Shown here: positions 25,959-60,142 of the stretch, piece after piece
Layout: each line of letters begins with the position of its first letter
Position numbering within the stretch: position 1 is the stretch's first letter
Assembly: GCF_900890425.1 (NCBI RefSeq)
Contig: NZ_CAAHFG010000001.1
Span: forward strand, 62,001-126,000
DNA: 64,000 bases
Reading direction: 5' to 3'
From: Pontiella desulfatans
GTDB lineage: Bacteria > Verrucomicrobiota > Kiritimatiellia > Kiritimatiellales > Pontiellaceae
Notes under the pieces: generated by a model
What the model was told of the DNA's origin: nothing
The model's input: the letters and a program-made list of their open reading frames with translations, nothing else
Database searches by the model: none
Program-made: the position numbers and the translations under genes

Positions 25959-26430
25959 GTCGGGAAATCTAACCACTAAATACACGAAACACACGAAATT
26001 TTCCGCAGTTGTCCTTTTTGTGTATTGCATGGCTCATGAATGCTGCAGGGCAATTGTCGGACGGCCCGTACCGCAGGCGTCCCGTCTGCCCCGCCGAACG
26101 GAAAAGCATCCATATCCTCCCCGGCTCTGTCGGCTGTCCGCCTACGAAACACTTACTGAGAGAGGTGGTCCGTGTTTCCAAACCATTCAATCGTATCCAG
26201 AATCGTTGCCAAGTTTATGGGGCCATGGTGAACGGGGGCTTCGCCCTTGTTTTCTTCGAAGATTATATGCGCTTCGCTGCGGTGGCGCGGGTTCTTGATT
26301 ACCGGCGATTTCGGCCGGGAACTCGGTTCCGGGGCTGAATTAACTCCTTTTGGATTAGGACTAGGCAATGTGGGGGAAATATTGTTTAGTTTCCGGAGAT
26401 ATTGAATTTCGCAACCAGGAGAGGGTGAAT
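25959..26430. other. Gene-free 472 bases upstream of accB, with repeat fragments
   Basis: An AACCACTAAA-type repeat fragment lies at 25971-25998 next to the vsr start. A 22-base arm at 26068-26089 matches, with one change, the right arm of the palindrome inserted in the dus gene at 46203-46253. The rest, including 26130-26400, shows only short open frames without family resemblance. The accB promoter must lie here but no boxes were certain. Confidence 0.6.
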
Positions 26431-41871: not shown

Positions 41872-42277
41872 GGAAACGATTAAAGCGCAAGTTGGATGGC
41901 GGTGCAATGGCGTGGAAAGGTTTGTAATCCCGCCTTTAGTCCCCCACCAGCTGCGCTGGATTTTTCATGCATTAGACTTCCCCTCTGAATTGGAGTTGAG
42001 CAACGAATGAATGGAAAGCAACGAATTTGCGGTGGGACGGATTCGTTGGTTGCCGCTTCGCTGCCGTCGCTCCGCGCCAGCCCCACTTCGTGTTCCATTC
42101 ATTCGTTGCTGGATTCACGCTGTGCCAAAGTCTCGTTTGTAATGAAGTCTCAAACAAGGCGGAATCGTGGCGCAGGCTTTCCAGCCTGCGTAGTCGCGGG
42201 AAGGGCAGGCTGGAAAGCCCGCCCCACATGCTCGTGTCGGCTGCGCGGCCTTTCGGGGAAAGAGCCGTGCACTACCT
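41872..42277. repeat. Gene-free 406 bases containing two palindromic repeat units
   Basis: A CAACGAATGAATGGAA arm (42001-42016) has a perfect 16-base inverted partner at 42093-42108. A second hairpin has arms 42167-42189 and 42205-42227, matching at 21 of 23 positions. The rest has no coding character. The element lies between rtcB and the LOG gene, both on the minus strand. Confidence 0.75.
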
Positions 42278-45262: not shown

Positions 45263-45383
45263 CGATAACCTCCGTATTAATCCGGATATTAAATCGCTTC
45301 TAAGTCGGAATTCCGATTTCAAATTGCAGGCAATTGGTGCATCGGTCGGGATTTATAGGTTTGTCCTTCCCCCTTAAAGTAAG

Positions 45384-45459
45384 GTATGTAGTTCCGCCTT
45401 TAGGCGGTTTTGGTTGAATGGCTTGATGGGACTGGCCGCCTAAAGGCGGAACTACATAC
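45384..45459. repeat. Perfect 24-base inverted repeat upstream of dus
   Basis: Arms 45384-45407 and 45436-45459 are perfect reverse complements (24 of 24) with a 28-base loop. Each arm itself holds a CCGCC-TTTA-GGCGG mini-palindrome. It ends 7 bases before the dus ATG, where a ribosome site would be expected and none is seen. Confidence 0.85.
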
Positions 45460-45466
45460 TTTTCTT

Positions 45467-46525
45467 ATGAAATTATCCCCCCTCCAGTTTGGCTCCGTGG
45501 TAATCGACTTTCCCGTGGTGCTCGCCCCGATGGCGGGCTACACCGATGCCGCGATGCGCACGCTGTGCCTCGAGCACGGCGCCGGGGCGGTCTATACCGA
45601 GCTCGCCAGCTCGGAAGGGCTTTGCCGCGACGGAGGAAAAACCTTCGAGGTGCTAAAGCCTGCGGAGAACGAGCATCCCATTGCCGGACACATTTTCGGG
45701 GCGAATCCGCAGCGCATGGCCGAAGCCGCAAAAATCATGGAGCAAGAGGGCGGTTTCGACTGGATCGATATCAATTGCGGCTGCCCGGTCAAGAAGGTGG
45801 TGTCGCGCGGCGCCGGCGCGGCGCTGCTCAAGGATTTGCCGCGCATGGCGAAGATTATCGAAGCGGTGAAAGGCGCCGTCGCGTTGCCGGTCTCGGTCAA
45901 GACCCGCATTGGATTCAACCACGACACCGCCGACCATCTCGAAATCGCAAAGGTCGTCGAGGCAAGCGGGGCGGATATGATCGCCGTCCACGCCCGTCTC
46001 GCAAAACATTTCCACGGCGGCGATCCCGATTGGGAAAAGCTCGCCGAGATGAAGCAGCAGCTGAAAATCCCAATCATCGGCAACGGCGGCGTCAATTCGC
46101 CGGAAGATGCCGAAAAGATGGTCGAGGTTTCCGGCGTGGACGGTGTGATGATCGGCCGAGGCGCCATTGGAAATCCGTGGATTTTCGAGGCCATTCGGCG
46201 GGGCAGGCAGGACGCCTGCGATACAAATGCCGTACCGCAGGCGTCCCGCCTGCTACCGTCGCTCGCGGAACGCCGCGATATGATGGCGGAGCACCTGCGG
46301 CGGTTGGTGGAGCTGAATGAGCTGAAGCAGGAGGTTTCGAGCCGTGCGAAAAAATATTCGGCGGAGCAGGCCGCCTGCATCCAGTTCCGCACCCATATTC
46401 CCTATTATGTGAAGGGATTGTTTGGTAAGAAGCAGTTGCTCATGAAGCTCGCCCACCTTTTGTCGGTCGATGCAATCATGGAAGAAGTTGATGTTTTAAT
46501 GGAAAAGAATAAGCGTGACGATTGA
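45467..46525 (+). CDS. tRNA-dihydrouridine synthase (DusB-like)
   Basis: A 352-residue FMN-dependent TIM-barrel enzyme that reduces uridine in the tRNA D-loop. Motifs: VVLAPMAGYTDAAMRTLC near 16-33, INCGCPVKKVVSRGAGAALL near 105-123 with the catalytic Cys, VSVKTRIGFNHD near 145, and IGNGGVNSPEDAE, IGRGAIGNPW near 205-243. The ATG at 45467 is chosen because it gives MKLSPLQFGSVVIDFPVVLA. A 51-base palindromic element is inserted in frame at residues about 246-262 (GRQDACDTNAVPQASRL). The C-terminal residues KRDD and the stop lie in another repeat. Confidence 0.92.
   Translation: MKLSPLQFGSVVIDFPVVLAPMAGYTDAAMRTLCLEHGAGAVYTELASSEGLCRDGGKTFEVLKPAENEHPIAGHIFGANPQRMAEAAKIMEQEGGFDWIDINCGCPVKKVVSRGAGAALLKDLPRMAKIIEAVKGAVALPVSVKTRIGFNHDTADHLEIAKVVEASGADMIAVHARLAKHFHGGDPDWEKLAEMKQQLKIPIIGNGGVNSPEDAEKMVEVSGVDGVMIGRGAIGNPWIFEAIRRGRQDACDTNAVPQASRLLPSLAERRDMMAEHLRRLVELNELKQEVSSRAKKYSAEQAACIQFRTHIPYYVKGLFGKKQLLMKLAHLLSVDAIMEEVDVLMEKNKRDD
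46203..46253. repeat. In-frame palindromic repeat inside the dus coding sequence
   Basis: Arms 46203-46224 and 46232-46253 match at 20 of 22 positions around a 7-base loop. The total of 51 bases equals 17 codons, so the reading frame is preserved and no stop is introduced. A copy of one arm lies in the intergenic region at 26068-26089. The inserted residues fall after the last barrel helix, near the start of the C-terminal helical domain. Confidence 0.85.
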
Positions 46526-46867: not shown

Positions 46868-46875
46868 TAATCCAG

Positions 46876-46944
46876 CAACGAATGTAGGAAAAACAACGAA
46901 TCCCGCATGCCGCTAGTTATTCGTTGTTTTTCCTACATTCGTTG
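46876..46944. repeat. Perfect 26-base inverted repeat, CAACGAAT family
   Basis: Arms 46876-46901 and 46919-46944 are perfect reverse complements (26 of 26) with a 17-base loop. It lies between the HTH-like gene and uvrA. Related units: 42001-42108 and 24412-24463. No T-tract, so termination is uncertain. Confidence 0.88.
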
Positions 46945-46968
46945 CATCCAATATGCTGGAGTTCAGGC

Positions 46969-49794: not shown

Positions 49795-49846
49795 CACAAA
49801 CGCCTTATCCAGATCGACGGCCGTCGATCTGGATAAGGCGTTTGTG
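49795..49846. repeat. Perfect 52-base palindrome between uvrA and the SET gene
   Basis: Bases 49795-49820 are the exact reverse complement of 49821-49846: 26-bp arms with no loop. It starts 6 bases after the uvrA stop and ends 11 bases before the SET ATG, next to a G-run that may serve as the ribosome site. It would form a strong mRNA hairpin. There is no T-tract on the plus strand. Confidence 0.95.
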
Positions 49847-54995: not shown

Positions 54996-55973
54996 CTATG
55001 CTCGTCGTAGAATCCGCTCCACATCCGCGATGGACCCGGTCTGCATCAGGCGGGCGCGTAGCTCGGCGGCGCCGGGGAAACCCTTGGAATAGATGGAATA
55101 ATAGTGGCGCAGGATGTGGAAATTCTTGGTGTCGCCCCAAACGCGGTCGAAAAGCTCGGTATGCTTCCATAGCAGATCGAGCTTTTCCTCTTTGGTGCGC
55201 TCGCGCTGCTCTTCCATGAAGATCCATGGATTATGGAAAATGCCGCGGCCGATCATTGCGCCATCCAGCTTGAATTCGGCGCACTTGGCGCGTGCTTCCT
55301 CCAGCGAAAGTACGTCACCGTTGCCGATCACAGGCAGCTCCAACCCGAGCTGGTCGCGCAACCGTGCCGCCCTGGCAATCTCGCCCCAGTCGGCCAGGCC
55401 ATCCGACATCTGCTTTTGCGTCCGCCCGTGGATCGTCAGCGCGGCGGGTTTGGTTTCGAGCACATGGCCAATCCATTCCTCGGTGGCGACCGACTTCAGG
55501 CCGATGCGTGTCTTGACGGAAACCGGAAGGTGGGTGGCTTCCTGCGCGGCCTGGATGATTTCCTTGGCGAGCGACGGATTGCCGATCAGACCGGAACAGC
55601 ATCCGCGGCGCACCACCTTCGGAACAGGACAACCCATGTTGATGTCGATCCCGTCGAACTCCATTTCATCGGTGATTTCCCTGACCACCTGCTGGTAGTT
55701 TTCGGGGGTGTTGCCCCAAATCTGGGCCACGATCTTTACGTTCTTCTCCTTGAGCAACCGCCGCTCTTCGCCAGTCACCTGCAGGCGATGGCTAATGCGC
55801 TTGCGGGCTTTCGGGTGCACCAGCCCATCGGTCGAGACAAACTCCGTCATCACCACATGCAATGCGCCCGGATCGGCCAGCCCGATCAATAGCTCGCGCA
55901 GTACCGTGTCGGTAACATCTTCCATCGGTGCCAAGGCAATGATCGGGCGGTCTATGGAATTCCAGAAATTCAT
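54996..55973 (-). CDS. tRNA-dihydrouridine synthase (second Dus)
   Basis: A 325-residue Dus: IIALAPMEDVTDTVLRELL at 10-28, ARKRISHRLQVTGEERRLLK, INMGCPVPKVVRRGCCSGLI with catalytic Cys near 110-130, VSVKTRIGLKSV and TIHGRTQKQMSDGLADW near 180-196, GNGDVLSLEEA and MIGRGIFHNPW. The best subfamily is uncertain; it is more diverged from the 45467 protein than a recent copy would be. It lies 47 bases downstream of bioB on the same strand, with a repeat between. Confidence 0.92.
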   Translation of the reverse strand: MNFWNSIDRPIIALAPMEDVTDTVLRELLIGLADPGALHVVMTEFVSTDGLVHPKARKRISHRLQVTGEERRLLKEKNVKIVAQIWGNTPENYQQVVREITDEMEFDGIDINMGCPVPKVVRRGCCSGLIGNPSLAKEIIQAAQEATHLPVSVKTRIGLKSVATEEWIGHVLETKPAALTIHGRTQKQMSDGLADWGEIARAARLRDQLGLELPVIGNGDVLSLEEARAKCAEFKLDGAMIGRGIFHNPWIFMEEQRERTKEEKLDLLWKHTELFDRVWGDTKNFHILRHYYSIYSKGFPGAAELRARLMQTGSIADVERILRRA

Positions 55974-57141: not shown

Positions 57142-59357
<2,216 letters not shown>

Positions 59358-60090: not shown

Positions 60091-60142
60091 AAACATCATA
60101 CTTGCATAAGTATGATATCGTACTTATGCAAGTATGATGTTT
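60091..60142. terminator. Bidirectional hairpin between convergent msrA and prmC
   Basis: Arms 60091-60112 and 60121-60142 are perfect reverse complements (22 of 22) around an 8-base loop. On the plus strand TTTT follows, and on the minus strand the stem starts with A/T, so either gene could terminate here. Inside, CATACTT/AAGTATG units make nested palindromes. Confidence 0.8.

Follow-up and report, generated by a model that had tools for sequence, protein, structure and literature searches.

The palindrome carried by the dus gene of Pontiella desulfatans is very probably an inverted dimer of REPs from a dispersed family, here termed family A, that lies as a REPIN-like, non-autonomous element in a loop of the encoded enzyme, keeps the reading frame and is read as 17 residues predicted to be disordered. 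On balance, we consider it rather probable that it belongs to a broader, coding-adapted REP/RAYT lifestyle in the Verrucomicrobiota and Kiritimatiellota, in which REPs are open in all frames and RAYT transposases persist, as complete genes, in the form of in-frame domain insertions in housekeeping genes (priA, xseA, cca, leuS, valS, carB and others); these would pass down together with their host gene and at times move to another. The dus palindrome would be a non-autonomous part of this system, its palindromic state maintained in place by copying from one arm to the other.

The dus gene and its palindrome

The window, that is, the whole stretch of 64,000 nt that was analysed, corresponds to bases 62001-126000 of contig C1 in a genome of 8.66 Mb and 6 contigs. 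Its dus gene has an intact reading frame, with an ATG at 45467 and a stop codon ending at 46525. A profile search finds the Pfam domain Dus in the product (E=4e-72), and the structures nearest to the predicted model are 1vhn and E. coli DusB (6ei9). The locus comprises the following features.

45377-45466, no strand: family-B REPIN (GTAGTTCCGCCTTTAGGCGG...), immediately 5' of the dus start codon; family B is also found in the dus loop of relatives
45467-46525, + strand: dus, DusB-like tRNA-dihydrouridine synthase of 352 aa (ORF, translation, Pfam, structure model)
46203-46253, no strand: very probable family-A REP dimer (REPIN-like), 51 nt or 17 codons, in frame, residues about 246-262 (inverted repeat, dispersed family)
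46203-46224, - strand: left REP, hairpin GCAGGCA-GGA-CGCCTGC with tail GATAC, equal to a tag GTATC on the - strand (family alignment)
46225-46231, no strand: 7-nt spacer AAATGCC (family alignment)
46232-46253, + strand: right REP, tag GTACC and hairpin GCAGGCG-TCC-CGCCTGC (tag common in the listed copies)

No ribosome-binding site is evident between the family-B REPIN and the dus start codon. A second Dus paralogue, 40% identical over the matched part, is encoded on the - strand of the window (55197-55955; G000:C1:117197-117955).

A preliminary description, made from the window alone, had reported a 51-nt inverted repeat of 17 codons in frame within dus, and the sequence, the ORF and shuffle comparisons confirm it: two arms of 22 nt (46203-46224 and 46232-46253), matching at 20 of 22 positions, are separated by a spacer of 7 nt, and flanking bases such as TTCGGCGGGG may also be part of the element. 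The linker region folds with a minimum free energy of -67.3, versus -44.0 for dinucleotide shuffles (z -5.8), and its stem score of 16 exceeds the best among 60 shuffles (9). No stop interrupts the element in any of its six frames. That the insert falls in a loop ahead of the C-terminal helical domain is borne out by linker comparison and by the AlphaFold model, in which pLDDT falls to 54 over residues 251-260, inside the insert (overall mean 91.9); this low-confidence block is preceded by a helix that ends at 249 and followed by the C-terminal helix 266-290. In this model, the palindrome-encoded residues are a disordered loop preceding the C-terminal helical domain of Dus.

Family A as a dispersed REP family

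The dispersed character attributed to the sequence holds genome-wide. The 17-nt core GCAGGCGTCCCGCCTGC occurs in 29 exact places and in 112 at up to two mismatches, some of the latter being palindromic places counted once on each strand, versus 4 for the reversed control, and more than 50 near-exact family-A arms are present in the genome. The second occurrence of an arm that had been pointed out within the window is likewise present, as a single REP:

26068-26089, + strand: single intergenic family-A REP GTACCGCAGGCGTCCCGTCTGC, with one mismatch in the 17-nt core

A GTAC or GTAT tag lies 5' of the core in 27 of the 30 listed copies, and inverted dimers, several with a 7-nt spacer, are formed by the dus element, by L010-L013 and by L028-L029. 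The palindrome in dus belongs to a family with REP/REPIN architecture and a variant tag. Family B, copies of which are scattered through 14 of the 28 genomes of the genus, has exactly GTAG as its tag.

The preliminary description had proposed to look for copies inside other reading frames. In the genome of the window, three such in-frame REPs lie in a GH106-like gene, and others in a GH2 beta-galactosidase gene, in a DUF4080 B12/radical-SAM gene and at the end of a ResB gene. In-gene palindromes are nevertheless rare overall. In 864 kb, made up of evenly spaced stretches of the genome and the window, 44 strict palindromes were recorded, of which 5 lie within ORFs, versus approximately 39 expected at a coding fraction of 90%. 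Three of these five are in ORFs of 122-162 aa that are perhaps spurious and one is close to an ORF start, so that dus holds the only clear in-gene palindrome of the survey.

Several further palindromes are seen in the window. The 5' end of uvrA carries a perfect 27-nt inverted repeat (46875-46945; GCAACGAATGTAGGAAAAACAACGAAT), which is probably another REPIN family, since a related palindrome occurs at L254 19616-19688. Two spacerless palindromes of 52 nt, with 26-nt arms matching at 100% and 96%, are located at 49795-49846 and 60091-60142, one of them just after uvrA. Another (57374-57431) lies near the start of the ORF at 57303-59357, the true start of which may be downstream. Lastly, a REP-like palindrome at 42167-42227 (GCAGGCTTTCCAGCCTGC) is similar to translated sequence beside the RAYT in the cca genes of relatives (GQAGKPAPHVEQAFQPA).

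Recurrent occupation of the Dus loop in relatives

The close relatives compared are Pontiellaceae (Kiritimatiellota), most of them represented by MAGs, many of these fragmented, and include the isolate Pontiella sulfatireligans F21 (G021; dus locus NZ_CAAHFH010000002.1). Measured from GNPWIF to the next helix, the linker is exactly 24 aa long in all ten genes of the neighbouring family, none of which shows a long stem or a significant palindrome, and most Dus homologues further out likewise have a shorter linker than this gene. The palindrome in dus is thus well supported as an insertion by these comparisons, although the 17-residue gain expected from alignment becomes a net gain of 13 residues (37 versus 24 aa). 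The preliminary description had also held that equivalent residues in all close homologues would speak against an insertion. Within the family such residues are present in part, but they are mostly palindromic elements themselves, and the outgroup lacks them. What did not stand is the notion of an isolated insertion in one species: because relatives share the occupied loop, a private event in the window species is rejected.

A significant palindrome, above every shuffle, occupies this loop in 12 of 18 Pontiellaceae dus genes, the remaining loops holding half elements, decayed elements or none. The palindromes are of at least three unrelated kinds, with A stems (GCAGGCG), A' stems (GCCTGCT-type), family B (GTAGTTCCGCC) and an inverted C type all seen. 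On a Dus tree built without the loop, the deep branches of which are weak, the element types are interleaved, suggesting that the loop was probably colonised more than once. The A-lineage copies have one common frame and orientation in 10 of 10 cases, though six frames are open, and the family-B copies retain the dispersed B consensus, including its AAAGG/CCTTT ends. A single ancestral insertion of family A, followed by changes, losses and replacements, would be the simplest reading of these patterns. No recent empty-site pair was seen among the dus genes of the relatives, and we infer the insertion event across deep divergence. The loop of P. sulfatireligans, with a linker of 63 aa, holds half a family-B REP and, nested next to it, a further and longer hairpin (GGGGTCAGTCCTATG...; L069 / L086). 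The dus gene of G025 (L068 / L095) is frameshifted at the element, which, in a low-coverage MAG, represents either decay or sequencing error.

Matching of the two arms

Across seven in-gene copies, both sides have changed in 8 of the 22 pairs of the long hairpin, and double-changed cells number 19, versus 6.5 in shuffles. The local REP hairpins covary likewise, and REP copies elsewhere than dus also keep paired stems. In G004, whose genome has 58 near-consensus matches, the arm GCAGGCGACCCGACTGC is matched exactly at dus alone, where two copies stand in inverted orientation. Two changes are common to both of these arms and are found nowhere else in that genome, suggesting that the palindrome has been kept matched in place. 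The exact arm of G013 is similarly confined to its dus, with related stems present elsewhere in the genome. Template switching between hairpin arms is a known route of mutation and would match the arms without selection; repeated invasion by different subfamilies could be another source of the covariation.

RAYT transposases in frame inside host genes

A profile search of the window genome yields 19 Y1_Tnp loci, four of which have other REP families on their flanks, as repeated hairpins with a GTAG or GGAG tag. No cognate A-REP RAYT is found among the 19; in place of the close A-type RAYT, the best RAYT of this genome is 47% identical and carries other REPs. The dus element may hence now be immobile in this genome. 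RAYTs flanked by family-A REPs do occur in relatives (L207, L289, L319 and others). In G004, an ORF of 807 aa encodes, along with B12-binding, radical SAM and DUF4080 domains, a complete Y1_Tnp domain that lies between in-frame family-A REPs, and the DUF4080 gene likewise holds a RAYT with A or A' REPs in G005 (the copy stopping at a contig edge), G006, G008, G014, G016, G020 and G021, as well as in G030, from the neighbouring family. The same gene is free of RAYT in some relatives and in the window genome, where in-frame A REPs occupy one of the two sites. In-frame members of the same broad RAYT group are found in priA, xseA, cca, mvaD, a cmoB-like gene, tatD (C-terminal) and a fic gene, many with translated REP-like repeats at their flanks. 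Representative loci are the following.

L207 2752-5178; L289; L319; L320; L303; L304; L291; L395; L396; L397: RAYT domains in frame in DUF4080, priA, cca, xseA, leuS, valS and carB

For priA, the genomes G005, G012, G014, G016, G017, G021, G025 and G026 yield nothing beyond the two halves of a single gene, so that no uninterrupted copy seems to exist beside it. RAYTs cluster by host gene, with 8 changes (the minimum) versus 24.6 in shuffles; apparent switches of host have led to fic and have taken place between mvaD and cmoB. Both catalytic motifs, NHxH and Y[IV]xxN, are kept in 35 of 35 in-gene RAYTs checked in the genus, and dN/dS, where computable, is about 0.06-0.17, a rough value given that synonymous sites are near saturation. 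Phylum-wide, 50 of 150 listed RAYTs lie within open frames of at least 450 aa. Both halves of the host gene are recognised in, among others, leuS, valS and carB, and some of the other long frames may have arisen by chance in GC-rich DNA. An intein-like nature of the embedded RAYTs was rejected, Y1_Tnp being the sole family in the inserts and no Pfam splicing or intein domain being found in them.

Alternative explanations

The element in the loop may be the same and its history different. Each species could have received its own REPIN from a currently dispersed family, the loop acting as a true target hot spot. This sub-model of REP insertion is a possibility of some weight that we nonetheless regard with doubt. 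It accommodates the unrelated families A, B and inverted C type interleaved in one loop, and the B copies that still match their dispersed consensus. It does not, however, readily account for the frame and orientation common to the ten A-lineage copies, or for G004 arms and an exact G013 arm that are unique to dus in their genomes.

That selection keeps the hairpin for a regulatory role in the dus mRNA, or as an attenuator, is very unlikely: it would explain a very stable hairpin (z about -6) and the paired changes on both arms, yet the hairpin has been lost or has decayed in several relatives, it has been replaced by unrelated palindromes, it is absent from the sister family, and its paired stems are a property of REP copies elsewhere too. 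Rfam gave no match above the gathering score; the sub-threshold hits were microRNA-like hairpins only, and a known RNA family was rejected. That the residues are ancestral to Dus, the palindrome being coincidental or compositional, is scarcely credible. Although the linker is similarly long in most homologues of the same family, it is 24 aa in the outgroup and likewise shorter than in this gene in most of the more distant ones, and this reading is already contradicted by the core sequence, which recurs in more than 50 other places. The stem lies far above the shuffles, by which a chance palindrome was rejected.

A model of REP entry and persistence in dus

In the REP insertion model, a RAYT, acting as a single-strand HUH transposase, would have placed the family-A element in dus, entering at the loop that joins the catalytic barrel to the C-terminal helical domain. 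The shared REP sequence points to mobilisation by the in-gene RAYT lineage. The A lineage would have entered once, in a Pontiellaceae ancestor, after which hairpin-templated copying of one arm onto the other would keep the arms matched, and the permissive loop would be re-colonised by other REP families after loss. Dus presumably retains its activity despite the insert.

These observations suggest a family of mobile elements able to live long inside translated genes, where it acts as a source of new protein loops and, beyond these, of an entire transposase domain, apparently without destroying essential enzymes. A single loop holding several palindromes in many species provides natural replicates for testing palindrome persistence. 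They likewise allow asking whether host proteins are produced with a RAYT as one of their parts, and whether embedding in an essential gene is what protects these transposases from loss, given that removal would need a precise in-frame deletion.

Comparison with known systems

REPs and REPINs dispersed by RAYT (TnpA-REP) transposases are well described (Bertels and Rainey, 2011, PMC3116915; PMC8266576). The elements reported here share with them short tagged hairpins, inverted dimers, dispersal, several families per genome and REP-flanked RAYT genes, but the tag is GTAC/GTAT instead of the known GTAG, the dus copy lies within a coding region, and the cognate-type RAYT of relatives is in frame within a host gene. 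The Rickettsia-like character suggested in the preliminary description applies to the in-gene palindrome as such. RPE-1, RPE-4 and RPE-6 are also in-frame palindromes within genes, a resemblance in kind. The closest counterpart is REP/REPIN with RAYT, where RPE-4 and RPE-6 have been classed as REP-like (PMC3733652), and not RPE-1, which is longer; the Rickettsia elements also belong to another phylum, and the present system includes a cognate transposase.

In-frame REPs have been published before, both as Rickettsia RPEs and as intragenic GTAG/CGTC REPs, which form dimers of 20-30 codons in genes, are richest in Opitutus terrae (Verrucomicrobiota), have tRNA-modification genes among their targets and, in recB of two Xanthomonas species, occupy about the same site (Di Nocera et al., 2013, PMC3733652). 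As in those cases, the whole element lies inside the coding region, the frame is kept and homologues without the element exist. Unlike them, at least three families occupy one loop in 12 of 18 species, the arms change together in place, and RAYTs are themselves in frame. A large HUH survey documented in-frame REPs within tnpA-REP genes of subclass 2.4; RAYT proteins of unexpected length were discarded there, being taken for annotation errors or fusions of genes (PMC6006769). Insertion of a REP without frame disruption is common to both systems, but in subclass 2.4 the REP lies within the transposase gene, whereas here a whole transposase lies within host genes. A literature search that included few subscription papers returned no report of RAYTs in frame in housekeeping genes such as priA and leuS, and the embedded in-frame RAYT domains are probably the most novel observation of this work. 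The recurrent occupation of one loop by several families, the in-place matching of arms and the embedding of RAYTs in housekeeping genes appear to be new.
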